64,000 nt of DNA from Pseudomonadota bacterium (lineage in GTDB: Bacteria; Pseudomonadota; Alphaproteobacteria; Sphingomonadales; Sphingomonadaceae), in contig JAIUPN010000014.1 of assembly GCA_020160755.1 (NCBI GenBank), forward strand, positions 1 through 64,000, given 5' to 3'. The translations under genes were made by a program, and so were the position numbers. A model generated the notes under the pieces. That model had not been told where the DNA came from. It was given only the letters and a program-made list of their open reading frames with translations, and made no database searches. How positions within the stretch are numbered: position 1 is the first letter of the stretch; every line of letters starts with the position of its first letter. Below, one piece after another: positions 9,011 through 16,908 of this stretch.

Positions 9011-9149
9011 GCAGGCACCTGAAAGCTGGGAGAGGAGGGTGCCCTTAATCGCAACTGCGAGTGAATTGCAAGAATCCGCCGGCGACGGGATTGAGCGACA
9101 CCGCGCCTTCGAGGGATGAGGCGCTATTCGGAATCCTGCGTGGTTGTCG

Positions 9150-9773
9150 TCAACCCTGCGGGATGCCCTTCATATCGGGCAGATGGTGCGCGATGCCCTT
9201 GTGGCAGTCGATGCATGTCTTCTGGCCGGTGCCCAGATATTGCTGGTGGATCTGCCCGGCGCGCGGCGACTGACGGGTGAGGTCCATCGAATCATATTGA
9301 TGGCAGTTGCGGCATTCGAGCGAGTCATTCGCTTTCAGGCGCGCCCATTCATGCTTGGCGAGTTCGAGCCGTTTATCGAGGAATTTCTCGCGCGATTCGA
9401 TCGACCCGAAAATCTTGCCCCACACCTCCTTCGACGCCTGCATCTTGCGGCCCATCTTGTCGGTCCAGTTGTGCGGGACATGGCAGTCCGAGCAGACCGC
9501 GCGCACGCCCGAGCGGTTGTTGTAGTGGATCGTCGTCTTCAGCTCGGCGAAGACATTGTCGTTCATTTCGTGACAGCTGGTGCAGAATGCCTCGGTATTG
9601 GTCGCCTCCATCGCGGTGTTGAAACCGCCCCAGAAGATGATCCCGGCGATGAAGCCGCCGAGGGTCAGGAACCCCATGCTGAAATGCAGGCTGGGCCGCC
9701 ACACCGTGGTCCAGAAGGGTTTGATCCAGCCCCAGACGCGCAGCCAGATCGTGCGAAGCCGCCCCCGGATCAT
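9150..9773 (-). CDS. napC: NapC tetraheme quinol dehydrogenase
   Basis: NapC passes electrons from membrane quinol to the periplasmic NapAB nitrate reductase. The 207-aa protein has one N-terminal membrane anchor (about residues 32-50) and four heme c sites, CxxCH, at residues 64-68, 94-98, 154-158 and 187-191. This matches the NapC/NirT family. The ATG at 9773 overlaps the napB stop (ATGA), so the gene is translationally coupled as the last gene of napEFDABC. The longer frame to 9860 is inside napB and rejected. Confidence 0.95.
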
Positions 9774-10288
9774 TGCTTCTCCTCCTTCGCCAATGTGGTG
9801 TTGAGGCCTTCGTACCGGTTCGCGACCAGCGGCTCGGCGTCGGTCTGGACGACGTGGCACTGGACGCAGAAATAGCGGCGCGACGAAATTTCCTCGAGAA
9901 CCTTGCCGTCGCGCGTCAGATAATGCGCGTCGCTGACCGGCGGTGCCTGAAATTTCTTCGCATTCGACCGCGTGTGGCAGAGCATGCAGCGATTGGTGTT
10001 CACGGTGAGCTGGTAATTGTCGATCGCGTGCGGGATCGTCGGCGGCTGCATCTCGTAATTCACCGGGCGGACGCGGTCGAAATTCTCGACGCGCGCCATC
10101 GGCAGCGGCGAGGCTTCCTTGTCGATCGGGACACCGCGGCGGATCGCGTCGATCTGTTGCCCGGCATTCGTGATGACCACCGGGGCGCTCGGCGCCTTGC
10201 GCGGCGTTTCCTCATGCTTCGACCCGCACGCGGCGAGGCTCGCGGCGGCGATCAACGGCAACAGCGCGCGCGTCAGAAGCCCGCTCAT
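9770..10288 (-). CDS. napB: NapB diheme cytochrome c subunit, with lipobox
   Basis: NapB is the small electron-transfer subunit of periplasmic nitrate reductase. Two heme sites are seen, CMLCH and CVQCH, with downstream His ligands. The 172-aa protein starts [12 protein letters not shown] and has LAAC at residues 18-21, a good lipobox, so this NapB may be a lipoprotein rather than a free periplasmic protein. Its start overlaps the napA stop and its stop overlaps the napC start, both as ATGA. The long upstream extension of the frame lies within napA and is not used. Confidence 0.93.
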
Positions 10289-12777
10289 GCCATCACCACC
10301 TTGACCGCGCATTTCTTGAAATCGGTCTGCTTGGAAATCGGGCAGGTCGCGTCGAGCGTCGTCTTGTTGATGAGCTGCGCGGCGTCGAACCAGGGCACGA
10401 AGACCAGCCCGACCGGCACGCGGTTGCGCCCGCGCGTCTCGACCCGGCTGCGCATCTCGCCGCGGCGCGAGATCACCTTGACCTCGTCGCCGCGCTTCAG
10501 CCCGCGTGCCTTGGCGTCGTCGGGGTTCATGAAGACGACCGCCGAAGGAAAGGCCTTGTAGAGTTCGGGAACGCGCATCGTCATCGATCCCGAATGCCAA
10601 TGTTCGAGCACGCGCCCGGTCGCGAGCCACAGATCATAATCGGCGTCGGGCGATTCGGCGGGCGGCTCGTAAGGCAGCGCCCAGATCACCGCGCGCCCGT
10701 CCTTGTTGCCGTAAAATTGCCAGTCGGTTCCGGGCTTCACATAGGGGTCGGTGCCTTCCTTGTAGCGCCAGCGCGTTTCCTTGCCGTTCACCACCGGCCA
10801 GCGCAGCCCGCGCGCCTTGTGATAGTCGTCGAAGGGCGCCAGGTCATGGCCGTGGCCGCGCCCGAATTCGGCATATTCCTCGAACAGGCCCTTTTGCGGA
10901 TAAAAGCCGAACGCCGCGGCCTCGTCATTGGCATAGCCGGCTTCGACCTCGCCCGGCGCGAAGCGGTCGACCTTGCCGTTGCGGTACAGCACCTCGAACA
11001 ACGTCTTGCCCTTATACGCCGGATTGGCGGCGAGCAGGTCGGCGGGCCAGCATTCGTCGGTGGTGAAGCGTTTGGAAAACTCCATGAGCTGCCACAGGTC
11101 CGACCGTGCCTCGCCCGGCGCCTCGACCAGCTGGTGCCAGAATTGCGTACGGCGCTCGGCATTGCCGTAGGCGCCTTCCTTTTCGACCCACATCGCGGTC
11201 GGCAGGATCAGGTCGGCGGCCTGCGCGGTGACCGTCGGATACGGGTCGGAGACGACGATGAAATTGTCGGGATTACGATAACCCGGATAACCTTCATTCT
11301 CGAGGTTCGCACCGGCCTGCATATTGTTGTTCGCCATCACCCAATAGGCGTTGAGCTTGCCGTCCTTCAGCATCCGGTTCTGTTCGACGATATGATAGCC
11401 GGCCTTGTCGACGATCAGTCCGTCGGGGAGTTTCCAGATTTCCTCGGCATGCTTGCGGTGTTCGGGATTGGTGACGACGAGGTCGGCCGGCAGGCGGTGC
11501 GAGAAGGTGCCGACCTCGCGCGCGGTGCCGCAGGCCGAGGGCTGGCCAGTGAGCGAGAAGGGGCTGTTGCCCGGCGTCGCGATCTTCCCCGTGAGCAAGT
11601 GGATATTATAGACCATATTATTGGCCCAGGTGCCGCGGGTGTGCTGGTTGAAGCCCATCGTCCACAGCGACATGACCTTGACCTTGGGGGCGGCGTAAAG
11701 TTCGGCGAGCTGCTTGAGCCAGCCCTTCTCGACCCCGCTGAGTTCGGCGGCATAGTCGAGCGTATAGGGCTCGACGAACGCCTTGAACGCGTCGAAGTCG
11801 ATCGGGGTGCTGCCGGTCGGATCCTTCGCATTCTTCGCCTTGAGCTCGAGCGGATTGTCGGGACGCAGCCCGTAGCCGATGTCGTCATTGCCGCGCTTGA
11901 AGCTGACATGCTTGCGTACGAAATCCTCGTTCACGCGGCCGGTCTGGATGATGTGGTTCGCGATATAGTTGAGGATCGCGAGGTCGGTCTGCGGCTTGAA
12001 GATGATCGGGATGTCGGCGAGATCGAAGCTGCGATGCTCGAAGGTCGAGAGCACCGCGACCTTCACATGATCGTGCGACAGCCGCCGGTCGGTGATCCGC
12101 GTCCACAGGATCGGGTGCATCTCCGCCATGTTCGAGCCCCAGAGCACGAAGGCGTCGGCGGCCTCGAAATCATCGTAGCAGCCCATCGGCTCGTCCATGC
12201 CGAAGGTGCGCATGAAACCGGTGACGGCGGAGGCCATGCAGTGCCGCGCATTGGGATCGATATGGTTCGACCGGAACCCCGCCTTCATCAGCTTGTTCGC
12301 TGCATAGCCTTCCCAGACGGTCCATTGGCCCGACCCCGCCATGCCGATCCCGGTGCCGCCCTTCGCCTTCAGCACGCGCTTGAACTGCGCCGCCATCACG
12401 TCGAACGCCTCGTCCCAGCTGACGGGTTCGAAATCGCCGTCCTTGGAAAACTGCCCGTCCTTCTTCCGCAGCAGCGGCGTCGTCAGCCGGTCGGCGCCGT
12501 ACATGATCTTCGAAAGGAAATAGCCCTTCACGCAGTTGAGCCCGCGATTGACCTCGGCATCGGCGTCGCCGTGGGTCGCGACGACGCGCCCCGACTGCAC
12601 CGCGACCTGCACCCCGCAACCGGTGCCGCAGAAACGGCACGGCGCTTTGGACCATTTGACGTCGGCGGGCGCCGCGGTCGTCGCCGTTTCGGCAAAGCTC
12701 GCGGGAACCGCGATGCCGGCGGCCGATGCCGCGGCGCCCACCGCGCTGGCCCGGATGAAATCACGGCGCGTCGTCAT
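10285..12777 (-). CDS. napA: NapA periplasmic nitrate reductase catalytic subunit
   Basis: NapA reduces nitrate to nitrite in the periplasm using molybdo-bis-MGD and a [4Fe-4S] cluster. The 830-aa protein begins with a twin-arginine signal ([10 protein letters not shown]). The cluster cysteines are C47, C50, C54 and C82 (Cx2Cx3Cx27C). The molybdenum ligand is C180 in [14 protein letters not shown]. The C-terminal segment ends [17 protein letters not shown], typical of NapA. The length matches the family. It is coupled by four-base overlaps to napD upstream and napB downstream. Confidence 0.98.
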
Positions 12778-13067
12778 AAACGGCTCCCCTGTTCGGCGCC
12801 GGGCTGGACGATGTCGCCCAGCCTGCTGCGCGGTTCGGCATGATGATAGACAAGGCTGACGCCGACGACCCCGGCGAGCGCCTGCACGGCGTCCATGCAG
12901 GCGAGCAGCTCGCGCGTTCCGCCGCCCTCGTGAAGCAGGATGGCGCGCCCCGCCTCGCGCGCCGCAATCTCGGCGCCGGGCATCGTTGCGGCGAGATGCT
13001 CGATCGAAGCGAGCGCATCGGGCCGGTGGTGGACGATGAAGCTTGCGATATGGACTTCGTCATCCAT
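12774..13067 (-). CDS. napD: NapD chaperone for the NapA Tat signal
   Basis: NapD is a small cytoplasmic protein that binds the twin-arginine signal of NapA during cofactor loading. The 97-aa product starts [17 protein letters not shown], matching the beta-alpha ferredoxin-like NapD fold, and has a conserved small-residue region [10 protein letters not shown]. The start at 13067 lies inside the end of napF (8-base overlap), and the stop overlaps napA. Position directly before napA supports the call. Confidence 0.93.
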
Positions 13068-13566
13068 GGACCTGCTCCGGGTTCGCCAGCGAGATCGCCG
13101 CGACGGGGCAGACCCCGACGCACGCGCCGCAGCCGGTACAGCGTGCGGCATCGAGTTCGGGAAGCGCGCCGCCGACGGCGGGGCGAAAGCGGATCGCCGC
13201 CTCGCCGCACGCATCGCGACAGCTGAAACAGGTCACGCCATTCTGCGCGAGACAGGCGGAGGCGATGCCAGCCTTGATCGTCCATGGGCCGGGCAGCCGC
13301 CCGTCGAGCGCGCCGGTGTCGCACGCCTGGACGCATTTTTCGCAGAACAGGCATTCGCCGTGCCGCGGGTCGAACAGTGGATAGCCCCCGTCGCCGCGGA
13401 CCAGCACCTGTTCGGGGCAGGCGGTGATACAATCGTCGCAGCCGGTGCAGAGATCGACGAAGCGCGCCTCGCCCAGAGCCCATGGCGGGCGCAGCGGGGA
13501 TGGCGCGGCTGGCTGCCCGCGCAGAAAGGCGCGACGGTCGGACGAAAAGGCCGCCGTGCCGGTCAC
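13060..13566 (-). CDS. napF: NapF iron-sulfur ferredoxin-type protein
   Basis: NapF carries four [4Fe-4S] motifs: CTGCDDCITAC, CLFCEKCVQAC, CFSCRDAC and CTGCGACVGVC. It is cytoplasmic and thought to help NapA maturation or iron-sulfur loading. The frame opens with an ATG at 13596, but a GTG at 13566 overlaps the napE stop as GTGA, in the same style as the other junctions of this operon, so I prefer the GTG. Neither start has a strong Shine-Dalgarno. From the ATG the product would be 178 aa, from the GTG 168 aa. Confidence 0.9.
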   Translation of the reverse strand: MTGTAAFSSDRRAFLRGQPAAPSPLRPPWALGEARFVDLCTGCDDCITACPEQVLVRGDGGYPLFDPRHGECLFCEKCVQACDTGALDGRLPGPWTIKAGIASACLAQNGVTCFSCRDACGEAAIRFRPAVGGALPELDAARCTGCGACVGVCPVAAISLANPEQVHG

Positions 13567-13721
13567 ACCCCCGGTGGGCCGTTGAGGAGTTGCCACATCC
13601 AGACGAGGAAGCCGTAAGCGGCGACGGTGAGGACCGCGAGCACCGGAAACAGCACCACGGTCATAAAGAGGAAGAGGCGCAGTTCCCTTTTTCTCGTCCC
13701 TGTATCAGCATTTTGACTCAT
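13563..13721 (-). CDS. napE: NapE small membrane protein (52 aa)
   Basis: This short gene codes for 52 residues. After KRELRLFLFM there is a single transmembrane helix (VVLFPVLAVLTVAAYGFLVW) and the end is MWQLLNGPPGV. The pattern of RxExxLF, the helix with a central YGF, and a terminal GPPG matches NapE, a small inner-membrane protein of unknown exact role in nap operons. The ATG has GGGGGA upstream. It is the first gene of napEFDABC. Confidence 0.88.
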   Translation of the reverse strand: MSQNADTGTRKRELRLFLFMTVVLFPVLAVLTVAAYGFLVWMWQLLNGPPGV

Positions 13722-13900
13722 CGACGGTTTCCCCCGTTCATATGCTCAAGCTGTTGTTGAACCTTAACAGACCCTTCGTCGTTTTTCCATGCCGGCCGGC
13801 CGACTATCCGCCTGTTTCGAGGCCTCCCTTCGTCGCGATCGCGGCTTTGACCCGCAGAGTGTCATGATCCGGCACATCGGCGCGCTTTGCCGCATCGCGG

Positions 13901-14626
13901 CTAGTCGCCGACGACCACGACGTCGGGAATCTCGTACCGTTCGGTTCCAATCGAGATCAGGTTGAGGTCGGCGTCGCGTCGCGATTTGAGCTGTGCCTTC
14001 GCCGAACCGTCGGCCTGGCTGGCGTCGAAGCCGATCGGCTTGCCCGCCGTGTCGAAGAAGATCGCACGCTGTCCGCCGCCTGGCCAGAAGATCGTGACCG
14101 TCGCGCTCCCGTCGGCCGCACGCACGACCCCGAAACGGCATTCGGTGGTCGGTTGCCCGGCATTGCGCGCGCATGGCACGGTCCCCGTCGCGTTGAAGTT
14201 CGTTCCGGCGACGAGCGCGTCCCCGCGCTCGTCGCTTACCTCGTCGGCGGGCGCAGGAACCGGCGGGGTCATGCCGGGCGCGGCGTTGTGCGCGGCCGGG
14301 ACGGAAATCAGCGTGATGCCGTCGACTTCGTCCACGACCTGGCCGGCAATCGTCGTGATCGCGGTGGCGGCCGGATCGCCGGGACGGCCGGGACAGCCCA
14401 CGAGCGTCGCCGAATCGTCGAGAAAATTGGAGGTCGCCGCCGATTCGCCGACGCGGCGGCACGGCGCGCCGGGGGCCGGATAGCCGTCGCCGACGGTGAC
14501 AAAAGATGCGGGCCAGACAAATTCGTTCGCGGATTTCTTCGCGTCGGGGCTGCCCGACCCGCAGGCGGACAAGGATGCGATGGCGCAGGCTGCGAGAAAG
14601 GGCAGGAAGGATTTCCGGACGATCAT
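13901..14626 (-). CDS. hypothetical lipoprotein
   Basis: The start at 14626 is six bases after GAGGAGG; an adjacent ATG at 14629 is closer than ideal. The N-terminus is a lipoprotein signal (FLAACAIASLSAC) with LSAC as lipobox. The mature part, about 220 aa, has several Cys residues (APCRRVGES, LVGCPG, VPCARNAGQ, TTECRFG), so disulfides are likely in the periplasm, and it ends in a beta-rich segment. I do not recognise the family. It is divergent from the lysozyme-inhibitor-like gene at 14851, with a shared 224-bp control region. Confidence 0.65.
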   Translation of the reverse strand: MIVRKSFLPFLAACAIASLSACGSGSPDAKKSANEFVWPASFVTVGDGYPAPGAPCRRVGESAATSNFLDDSATLVGCPGRPGDPAATAITTIAGQVVDEVDGITLISVPAAHNAAPGMTPPVPAPADEVSDERGDALVAGTNFNATGTVPCARNAGQPTTECRFGVVRAADGSATVTIFWPGGGQRAIFFDTAGKPIGFDASQADGSAKAQLKSRRDADLNLISIGTERYEIPDVVVVGD

Positions 14627-14850
14627 CATTGTCCTCCTCGAAACGCGATCAGGCAACATAGGAACAGCGGACAAGGTCGGGAAAAGCGATGTTTTCGTTC
14701 CCTGTGCTCCCATGTTCATCGCTTTTGCAAGTTTCGATTCAATGATACATGGATGGAAACCGGTTGCAAGTTCAAACCCGGCCCCAACTATACTGAATCT
14801 GTTCGCACGGACTGCATTTCTTGCCGGTCCCGATTCGAGGAGCAAAGGTG

Positions 14851-15249
14851 ATGAGGAAGATCCTGATGGCCGCCGTTCTGGTGGCCGCGCTCGCCGTGCC
14901 GTCGCTGGCGCAGGCGCCGATCCGTACCGAACGCGTGCAATTTGCCAAAGGCGCTTCGTCCAAGGCGATCAAGGCGTCGATCAAGGGGTATCAGACGGTC
15001 GACTATGCGCTCGGCGTGCGCGCCGGCCAGACGATGACTGTTTCGCTGACGACGAGCAATGCCTCAGCCTATTTCAACATCATCGCGCCGGGCGCCGACG
15101 CCGCGTTGTTTACCGGATCGATCGACGGAAACCGTGCCAGCGTCCAGATCCCGTCGAGCGGCGATTACAAGGTCCGCGTTTACCTGATGCGCAACGCTGC
15201 GCGCCGGAACGAGACCGCCAACTACACGCTGACCATCGGTGTAAGGTGA
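14851..15249 (+). CDS. PliG-like g-type lysozyme inhibitor
   Basis: The protein is about 132 aa, secreted (signal MRKILMAAVLVAALAVPSLA). The mature part has IKGYQTVDYALGVRAGQTM, a phrase of the PliG periplasmic lysozyme-inhibitor fold, and ends DYKVRVYLMRNAARRNETA, also typical of that family. PliG proteins bind and block g-type lysozymes in the periplasm. The ATG at 14851 follows GAGGAG by eight bases; the frame upstream to 14821 is not needed. An L,D-transpeptidase and an LprI-like gene follow on the same strand. The family call rests on remembered motif similarity, not a search. Confidence 0.7.
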   Translation: MRKILMAAVLVAALAVPSLAQAPIRTERVQFAKGASSKAIKASIKGYQTVDYALGVRAGQTMTVSLTTSNASAYFNIIAPGADAALFTGSIDGNRASVQIPSSGDYKVRVYLMRNAARRNETANYTLTIGVR

Positions 15250-15297
15250 TCGTCTTTCGCGCGCTCGCGGCTCCCGGTCTTTAGGAGGAAGACGGTT

Positions 15298-16296
15298 TTG
15301 ACGCTGCACCTGATTCCGTTCGGCCTGTTTGCGCTGTCGGTCGCCCTCCCGGCGAGCGCGCTCGCGCAGGGCGCGCATACGACATCGGCGGTCGAACTGG
15401 CGCGTGAGGCCGGGCGGCTGCAACCCGGACAGTGGGTCTGGGCGCCCGAAATTTCGCCCAGGGGTCCGGTCCTCGTCGTCGTCGACCTGTCGACGCAGGT
15501 CGCGACCGTCTATCGCAACGGCGTGCGGATCGGGGTCTCGACGGTGTCGAGCGGGAAGCCGGGGCATGAAACGCCGACGGGGGTGTTCACGATCCTCCAG
15601 AAGGACCCGCGCCATCGGTCGAGCACCTATAACAACGCCCCGATGCCCTATCAGGAACGGCTGACGTGGGACGGCGTCGCGCTTCATGCCGGCGGGCTGC
15701 CGGGCTACCCTGAAAGCCATGGCTGCGTGCACCTGCCGCTCGAATTTTCCAGATTGTTGTTTGGGACGACCCAGCTTGGCGGCACGGTGATCGTCAGCGG
15801 GCGGGCGGGCGAGCCGATCGCGGGCGTTTCGCCGGGCGTCTTCAGCCCGGCGGGCGAACGGCGCGGGACGCATGTGCCGCTCGCCCCCGACGAGAGTTAT
15901 CGCTGGCAACCCGAACTGTCGCCGACGGGGCCGCTGACGATCATCCTGTCGCGCAGCGACGGGCGCGCGATCGTGATGCGCAACGGGATCGAAATCGGCC
16001 GCGCGCGCGTCGAACTGCCCGACCAGAATTTCGAAACGCACGTGCTGAGCTATATCGCGGGCGCGGGCGGCGCCGGGGGGCATTGGGCCTATGTCGCGGT
16101 TCCGGGGCACGACGGCGATCAGGGGCGGCCGCTCGATATGAGCATTGCCGACAAGGCGCGGATTCCGGAAGCGTTTCGCAAGGCGGTGCTGGGCGCGGTC
16201 GCGCCGGGGACGACGATGCTGGTGACGCAGGCGCCGGTGCTGCCCGCGTCGACCGGGGGCAAGCTGACCGTGCTGGCGAGCGAGGAAGCGAAATGA
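15298..16296 (+). CDS. L,D-transpeptidase (YkuD domain)
   Basis: The enzyme cross-links peptidoglycan stems (3-3 links) or attaches proteins to them, using a catalytic cysteine in the periplasm. The 332-aa protein has a signal peptide (ALPASALAQ) and the YkuD motif HAGGLPGYPESHGCVHLP, with His130, His141 and Cys143. It starts at TTG 15298, supported by AGGAGG nine bases upstream; no better ATG fits the signal peptide. The region after about residue 165 is an extension with RGxHVPLAPDESYRW-like repeats of the first domain, possibly a second, inactive lobe. The stop overlaps the next gene (ATGA). Confidence 0.9.
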   Translation: MTLHLIPFGLFALSVALPASALAQGAHTTSAVELAREAGRLQPGQWVWAPEISPRGPVLVVVDLSTQVATVYRNGVRIGVSTVSSGKPGHETPTGVFTILQKDPRHRSSTYNNAPMPYQERLTWDGVALHAGGLPGYPESHGCVHLPLEFSRLLFGTTQLGGTVIVSGRAGEPIAGVSPGVFSPAGERRGTHVPLAPDESYRWQPELSPTGPLTIILSRSDGRAIVMRNGIEIGRARVELPDQNFETHVLSYIAGAGGAGGHWAYVAVPGHDGDQGRPLDMSIADKARIPEAFRKAVLGAVAPGTTMLVTQAPVLPASTGGKLTVLASEEAK

Positions 16297-16895
16297 CGCG
16301 CGCGCCGCGCATCGCGGGCCTCGCGCTGATCTTGCTGGCGGCGTTGCCGGCGCATGGACAGCCGGCCGCGGTGCCGCCGCCGCCCGACCAGCCGGTCATC
16401 GATTGCGCGCGACCCGTCTATGCGATCGACACGATGATCTGCGACGATCGCGATCTGGGCGCGGCGAATGCCGAAATGAACGGCCTGTTGGCGGGCCTGT
16501 CCTTCGCCGGGCTCGATCCCGACCGGATCGAACCGCAGGCCGACTGGGTGCGGCGCCGCGCGCTCTGTGCGTTTCAGCCCGACGGGCGCGCCTGCGTCGC
16601 CGGCGCCTTCGCCGAACGCCTTGCGATATTGCGGGCGCTGCGCGGTCCCGGCGCGGCGAAGGCCGTGAAGGCGCAGTGCCGCGGTGCGGGCGAAACCGGG
16701 GATCTGACGGTCGAGCGCTACCCGCCCGCAATCGTGCTGCGCGACACCGAAGGCCGTGTGCGCCTTGTCGCCGTGGCGCCGGGGGCCTCGTCGTGGCGTC
16801 CCTTCGTCGCCGTCGAACGCGACGCGGGCCGCCAGCTTGCGATGAAGGCGAAGACCGCGCAGGTCAGCTGCAAGATCGTTTCGCGCGGGCGATAG
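16293..16895 (+). CDS. LprI-like (DUF1311) secreted protein
   Basis: This 200-aa secreted protein (signal ending PAHGQPA) has the DUF1311/LprI pattern: DCARPVYAIDTMICDDRDLGAAN followed by WVRRRALC, with conserved cysteines. Some members of that family inhibit lysozyme, as described for mycobacterial LprI. The C-terminal half (about residues 120-200) is not recognised. The start overlaps the L,D-transpeptidase stop by four bases, so expression is coupled. It runs convergently toward cobU with a 13-base gap. Confidence 0.68.
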   Translation: MTRAPRIAGLALILLAALPAHGQPAAVPPPPDQPVIDCARPVYAIDTMICDDRDLGAANAEMNGLLAGLSFAGLDPDRIEPQADWVRRRALCAFQPDGRACVAGAFAERLAILRALRGPGAAKAVKAQCRGAGETGDLTVERYPPAIVLRDTEGRVRLVAVAPGASSWRPFVAVERDAGRQLAMKAKTAQVSCKIVSRGR

Positions 16896-16908
16896 GCAAG
16901 ACTGCGAC

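Follow-up and report, generated by a model that had tools for sequence, protein, structure and literature searches.

Lysozyme inhibitors have mostly been studied as single genes in the pathogens and commensals of animals. In the case of the inhibitor of goose-type (g-type) lysozyme, E. coli PliG aids survival in mussel hemolymph, where g-type lysozyme occurs (PMC10609593), and also, according to a work cited in PMC3458809, in goose egg white. A further class of inhibitors, MliC/PliC, comprises lipoproteins recognized by the Pfam model PF09864, and an MliC domain also follows the LprI domain in M. tuberculosis LprI, a member of the LprI family (PF07007). Another protein with an LprI domain, Salmonella ScwA, plays no part in resistance to lysozyme; it controls the levels of the transglycosylase MltD (PMC7933661). 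A function against lysozyme therefore does not follow from the name LprI, and an LprI domain by itself is not a proven inhibitor of lysozyme. In a limited search of the open literature, no paper emerged that connects an operon for an L,D-transpeptidase with an inhibitor of lysozyme. The genus concerned here, Sphingopyxis, is mainly environmental and consists of water- and soil-type bacteria.

The window, by which we mean the whole stretch of 64,000 nucleotides of sphingomonad DNA that was analyzed, contains between positions 14851 and 16895 three co-directional open reading frames on the forward strand, each for a predicted exported protein with a Sec-type signal peptide recognizable by eye at its N-terminus. 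These proteins are a PliG homologue, a YkuD-family L,D-transpeptidase and a third protein, referred to here as P3 (Table 1). The first-pass annotation, made from the letters of the DNA, had the coordinates, order and strand of the three frames right; it passed over the divergent lipoprotein gene and the adjoining nap genes. The stop codon of pliG lies 48 nt from the start of the transpeptidase gene on the same strand, and the orthologues of the transpeptidase could likewise start at a TTG in this position. The intergenic region between the lipoprotein gene and pliG is likely a site of their common regulation; no convincing promoter was found in it, and promoter and terminator scans gave nothing usable.

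Table 1. Features of the locus and of its divergent flank, in window coordinates.
Feature	Coordinates	Strand	Description	Basis
nap (periplasmic nitrate reductase) block, napC to NapF-like gene	9148..13759	-	collinear in six Sphingopyxis genomes	
Two-domain lipoprotein ("Lipo")	13901..14629	-	lipobox LSAC; divergent to pliG	
Divergent intergenic region	14630..14850	.	shared by the lipoprotein gene and pliG	layout
PliG homologue	14851..15249	+	132 aa; Sec signal, then a single PliG domain, residues ~24-131	phmmer to solved PliGs, dN/dS
Ribosome-binding site AGGAGG	15283..15288	+	precedes the TTG start of the transpeptidase	sequence
YkuD-family L,D-transpeptidase	15298..16296	+	332 aa; TTG start; HAGGLPGYPESHGCVH, C143	PF03734, NF004785, motif
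ATGA stop-start overlap, transpeptidase/P3	16293..16296	+	kept in relatives	sequence
P3	16293..16895	+	exported, 200 aa; four-Cys helical LprI-like domain and seven-stranded beta domain ~125-195	AlphaFold, profile

The first protein matches PDB entry 4dzg over the full domain in phmmer searches (E 2.2e-20) and the solved PliGs of entries 4dy5, 4dy3 and 4dxz, the latter two from E. coli and Salmonella, over residues 24/28-131 (E ~1e-11), and its C-terminal block SG-x-Y...R-x-x-ARR aligns with the solved PliGs. The record of 4dzg itself names PliG, and we take the species to be A. hydrophila. No Pfam model reaches its threshold on this protein, so that annotation by Pfam only would overlook it. 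Like the PliGs of E. coli, Salmonella and Aeromonas hydrophila (4dxz, 4dy3, 4g9s, 4dzg), it is a small, stand-alone exported protein with a Sec signal and a full-length domain; it differs in its sphingomonad host, in its position upstream of a transpeptidase, and in that its gene faces that of a lipoprotein with two domains, the C-terminal one of which forms fusions with PliG in relatives. Between the window genome and genome G190, the homologue is 97% identical with a dS of 0.30, which is usual for the region, and its dN/dS of 0.05 (bootstrap 0.01-0.12) is the lowest among the genes compared (transpeptidase 0.16, NapF 0.29, P3 0.31), indicating strong purifying selection. A recent transfer of the single gene, suspected from protein identities of 97-99%, was ruled out by a dS that is the same as that of its neighbors. 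The protein is predicted to be exported to the periplasm and likely inhibits g-type lysozyme.

The second protein is recognized by PF03734 (1.9e-19; 71 bits against a cut-off of 23.4) and by the NCBIfam model PRK06132.1-2 (NF004785; 9.8e-111, above the subfamily cut-off). Its catalytic His...[ST]HGC motif is intact (HAGGLPGYPESHGCVH) and is the same in close orthologues, with V or I before the last H; the resulting signature ESHGC[VI]H sets the group apart from the commoner PASHGC[IV]R paralogues. The window genome encodes four further YkuD genes. Within the C-terminal half, the beginning of the YkuD domain recurs in degenerate form, devoid of the catalytic motif (E 1e-8). With other NF004785 enzymes the protein shares its size and the catalytic His/Cys motif, and it differs from them in this repeat and in its coupling to P3. 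By homology, it would act in L,D-cross-linking or in the attachment of proteins to the wall.

Direct sequence searches with P3 gave no match in Pfam, NCBIfam or the PDB, and PF07007 matches neither it nor its close relatives at E <= 1-5, which keeps them below the Pfam gathering score. Four cysteines of its N-terminal half (C38, C50, C92 and C101) are invariant in nine sequences, and its AlphaFold model (pLDDT 80, pTM 0.74) comprises a helical domain at residues 44-117 and a seven-stranded beta domain at residues 125-195. A profile made for the N-terminal domain from members that Pfam does not recognize, and with E-values that refer to a small local set, reaches a PF07007-like protein (L025, 6.5e-9), an LprI+MliC protein of genome G011 (L104, 5e-7) that is itself over the PF07007 cut-off, and, at marginal values, canonical LprI proteins. 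Because the profile reaches LprI proteins through these intermediates, transitive evidence places the helical domain in the LprI superfamily. Three weak hits of P3 itself (L026-L028) were unrelated frames or proteins and were dropped. As a profile-based assignment below the curated cut-off, the term LprI-like holds for the N-terminal domain only. The arrangement of a four-Cys helical domain followed by a second, beta domain is shared with the LprI family, to which M. tuberculosis LprI and Salmonella ScwA belong, while P3 differs in lying below the Pfam cut-off, in being no lipoprotein, and in a beta domain that is not tied to MliC. A dN/dS of ~0.3 marks it as a fast-evolving protein. The first-pass annotation was thus borne out in calling the first protein PliG-like and the second an L,D-transpeptidase, and half so in calling the third LprI-like, a description that stands for the N-terminal domain and leaves the beta domain uncovered. 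A reading of the locus as encoding two inhibitors of lysozyme is not supported, in view of ScwA (PMC7933661) and of a beta domain that could not be connected with MliC.

In order to define the distribution of the locus, 80 Sphingopyxis genomes were searched for the three genes. P3 orthologues (at least 74%) are present in five of the 80, namely the window genome, G190, G176, G169 and G217, all of them among the six genomes that have the nap block; the sixth, G208, has nap and neither transpeptidase nor P3. Four genomes have the coupled pair of P3 and an intact transpeptidase at the border of the nap block, PliG orthologues are found in three (window genome, G190 and G176), and all three genes are intact together in just two (window genome and G190). 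G169 and G217 carry the transpeptidase-P3 pair without PliG. In the case of G176 (L081 5869-6224), the transpeptidase is broken by an internal deletion and a change of frame, so that nothing but its two ends is left, each in another frame, between intact genes for PliG and P3. Each part can therefore live alone, and pliG is an optional add-on, not part of a fixed three-gene machine; the single conserved module that had been proposed for the three genes is not supported in the genus. The transpeptidase and P3, on the other hand, are inherited together: the ATGA coupling, already noted in the first-pass annotation, is kept in G169, G190 and G217 and in the divergent G197, and P3 is coupled to or located beside the transpeptidase or its remnant in all five orthologue-bearing genomes and in G197. 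A contig search with P3 retrieved two loci only, which look the same as those of G169 and G190.

The two halves of the cluster also differ in synonymous divergence, as dS between the window genome and G190 is ~0.6 for the transpeptidase and P3 and ~0.3 for NapF, the lipoprotein and PliG, which points to different recent histories. The distance from the end of the nap block to the transpeptidase is ~0.23 kb in G169 and G217 as against ~1.6 kb in the window. In all four of the relatives with nap in which P3 is retained, collinearity with the window ends at 16899, immediately past P3, and the genes beyond P3 differ where they were read (G169 and G190). As a side observation, the segment 9148-16899, with nap and the cluster together, keeps its collinearity across several Sphingopyxis genomes and loses it past that point, which gives it the look of a block that moves.

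The lipoprotein that faces pliG is confined at this locus to the window genome and G190 and is absent from the same place in G176, G169 and G217; G176 lacks it here and nonetheless has PliG. Its AlphaFold model has two folded parts. G003, G098 and G114 encode in-frame fusions in which the C-terminal domain follows PliG, the N-terminal domain being in G003 a separate gene just upstream of the fusion, and G001 has genes for the lipoprotein and for PliG at a distance of ~1.5 kb. The case for the lipoprotein as a partner of PliG consequently has stronger evidence than that for the transpeptidase, and the PliG-fused domain is a new and concrete starting point for understanding the deployment of g-type inhibitors. 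Homology of this domain to PliC was considered, since Salmonella PliC (3oe3) is among the top Foldseek matches (E 0.05, probability 0.90), and is not claimed because Z is just 3.4. Elsewhere (G015, G059 and G079), the N-terminal domain has a gene to itself or is joined to a different C-terminal domain, and a PliG protein of G142 (C45; L087 4402-5121) has an extra C-terminal domain of ~75 residues with two cysteines.

Further out, inhibitor genes again lie near the transpeptidase or P3. G197 has, one after the other, genes for an M13 peptidase, an LprI+MliC lipoprotein (L084 4618-5256; PF09864 5.6e-16), the transpeptidase and P3, so that the lipoprotein stands directly upstream of the transpeptidase-P3 pair; in G219 an M13-peptidase-like gene comes first, then an LprI+MliC gene (L097 3859-4497) directly before P3, and there is no transpeptidase. 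The transpeptidase of G011 is followed within 3 kb by a regulator-like frame, a LipoC-type lipoprotein and an LprI+MliC gene (L104 6746-7606), and that of G012 has a PliG gene ~1.2 kb downstream. The LprI+MliC lipoproteins of G197, G219 and G011 have the architecture of M. tuberculosis LprI. PliG matches occur in 16 of 150 family genomes, and the frequency of inhibitor-type genes in these 150 genomes gives an expected rate of ~0.001 per locus within 4 kb. Among ten transpeptidase loci from outside the genus, two have such a gene at that distance or less, corresponding to P ~6e-5, a value that treats loci as independent and rests on a handful of events. The surroundings of the paralogues with HAG-x-LPG-x-PASHGC yielded no inhibitor-type gene. 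On these genomic grounds, the association of inhibitor genes with transpeptidase-P3 is still not random despite the lack of a fixed trio. The neighborhood, which the first-pass annotation had proposed to compare among relatives, accordingly gives a divided answer: the trio is not constant, and other inhibitor genes, LprI+MliC or PliG, lie beside transpeptidase or P3 orthologues.

We lean, with moderate confidence, towards the view that the locus is an accessory, recombining, mix-and-match envelope cassette beside the nap block, directed against lysozyme or wall hydrolysis. A less likely alternative is that two unrelated units merely adjoin, a lipoprotein-PliG pair against lysozyme and a transpeptidase-P3 pair for wall remodelling, both lodged at the variable end of the nap block. 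The independent presence and absence of PliG and the lipoprotein relative to the transpeptidase pair, the difference in synonymous divergence between the halves, and the linkage or fusion of PliG and lipoprotein where there is no transpeptidase are all what this alternative would predict. It fits less well with the short same-strand gap between pliG and the transpeptidase, or with the recurrence of inhibitor genes beside the transpeptidase or P3, as LprI+MliC in G197, G219 and G011 and as PliG in G012.

The target of the cassette may also lie within the cell: PliG and P3 could restrain lytic transglycosylases while the transpeptidase strengthens or edits the wall, which would amount to control of the cell's own wall enzymes and not to defense against animal lysozyme. 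Ivy and MliC have a partial inhibitory effect on lytic transglycosylases in vitro (PMC10139938), and the LprI-domain protein ScwA controls MltD levels without an effect on lysozyme resistance (PMC7933661). The same source, however, describes Ivy and MliC as weak transglycosylase inhibitors (PMC10139938), and control of a cell's own enzymes is expected to be general, whereas PliG is confined to three of 80 genus and 16 of 150 family genomes. Sphingopyxis being mainly an environmental genus speaks for this explanation, which we likewise regard as less likely. More improbable still is that P3 is a real lysozyme inhibitor of the M. tuberculosis LprI kind, with a diverged MliC-type domain in which a [ST][GS]WRP loop has replaced the SGxxY loop. 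The order of a four-Cys helical domain and a beta domain is that of the LprI+MliC proteins of G197 and G219, and a conserved [ST][GS]WRP loop connects strands 4 and 5 of the beta domain, whose first and last strands each contain a cysteine. Compared by hhalign with MliC, though, it gives a non-significant P of 0.14, in an alignment that is partial for many MliC members, and the best Foldseek and VIA-align matches are weak PH/PTB/FERM-like folds (Z ~6), with MliC not among the matches listed.

For the mix-and-match cassette that we favor, the homologies of PliG and the transpeptidase, the coupling and co-inheritance of transpeptidase and P3, the selection on PliG and the exchange of the upstream inhibitor gene among relatives are observed; the division of labor that follows is proposed. 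PliG, exported to the periplasm, would most likely block g-type lysozyme as E. coli PliG does. As products of coupled genes, the transpeptidase and P3 would work on the peptidoglycan itself. The former would form L,D-cross-links or attach proteins to the wall, and the latter, a soluble LprI-domain protein of the periplasm, would be its partner or regulator and might have a beta domain of inhibitor type. The three genes probably shield the cell wall; the transpeptidase and P3 may contribute to lysozyme tolerance, and cooperation of all three is plausible. If the genes do act together, inhibitor defense would be linked to wall remodelling, and LprI domains, whose function is disputed, would gain a testable partner in the transpeptidase. 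The setting itself is of interest, in that the genus is environmental, the inhibitor has a wall cross-linking enzyme and a protein with an LprI domain as neighbors, and genes have been swapped among relatives. A bolder and improbable extension is a sphingomonad family of interchangeable envelope cassettes, in which a fixed transpeptidase-P3 pair is combined with varying inhibitors (PliG or LprI+MliC) and with the PliG-partner lipoprotein, and in which P3 is a new kind of inhibitor or a regulator of the transpeptidase; enzymatic wall reinforcement and lysozyme inhibitors would then be one regulated defense.

Other inhibitor-type genes are present in the same genomes. MliC genes are common at other places in the Sphingopyxis genomes (50 of 80), a point against the cassette view. 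MliC/PliC lipoproteins (PF09864), which hold the place before transpeptidase-P3 in G197 and before P3 in G219, are absent from the window. The window genome (G000) has a separate MliC gene (C1:901267) and a canonical LprI gene (C1:344063), and PliG is therefore not its sole inhibitor-type gene.
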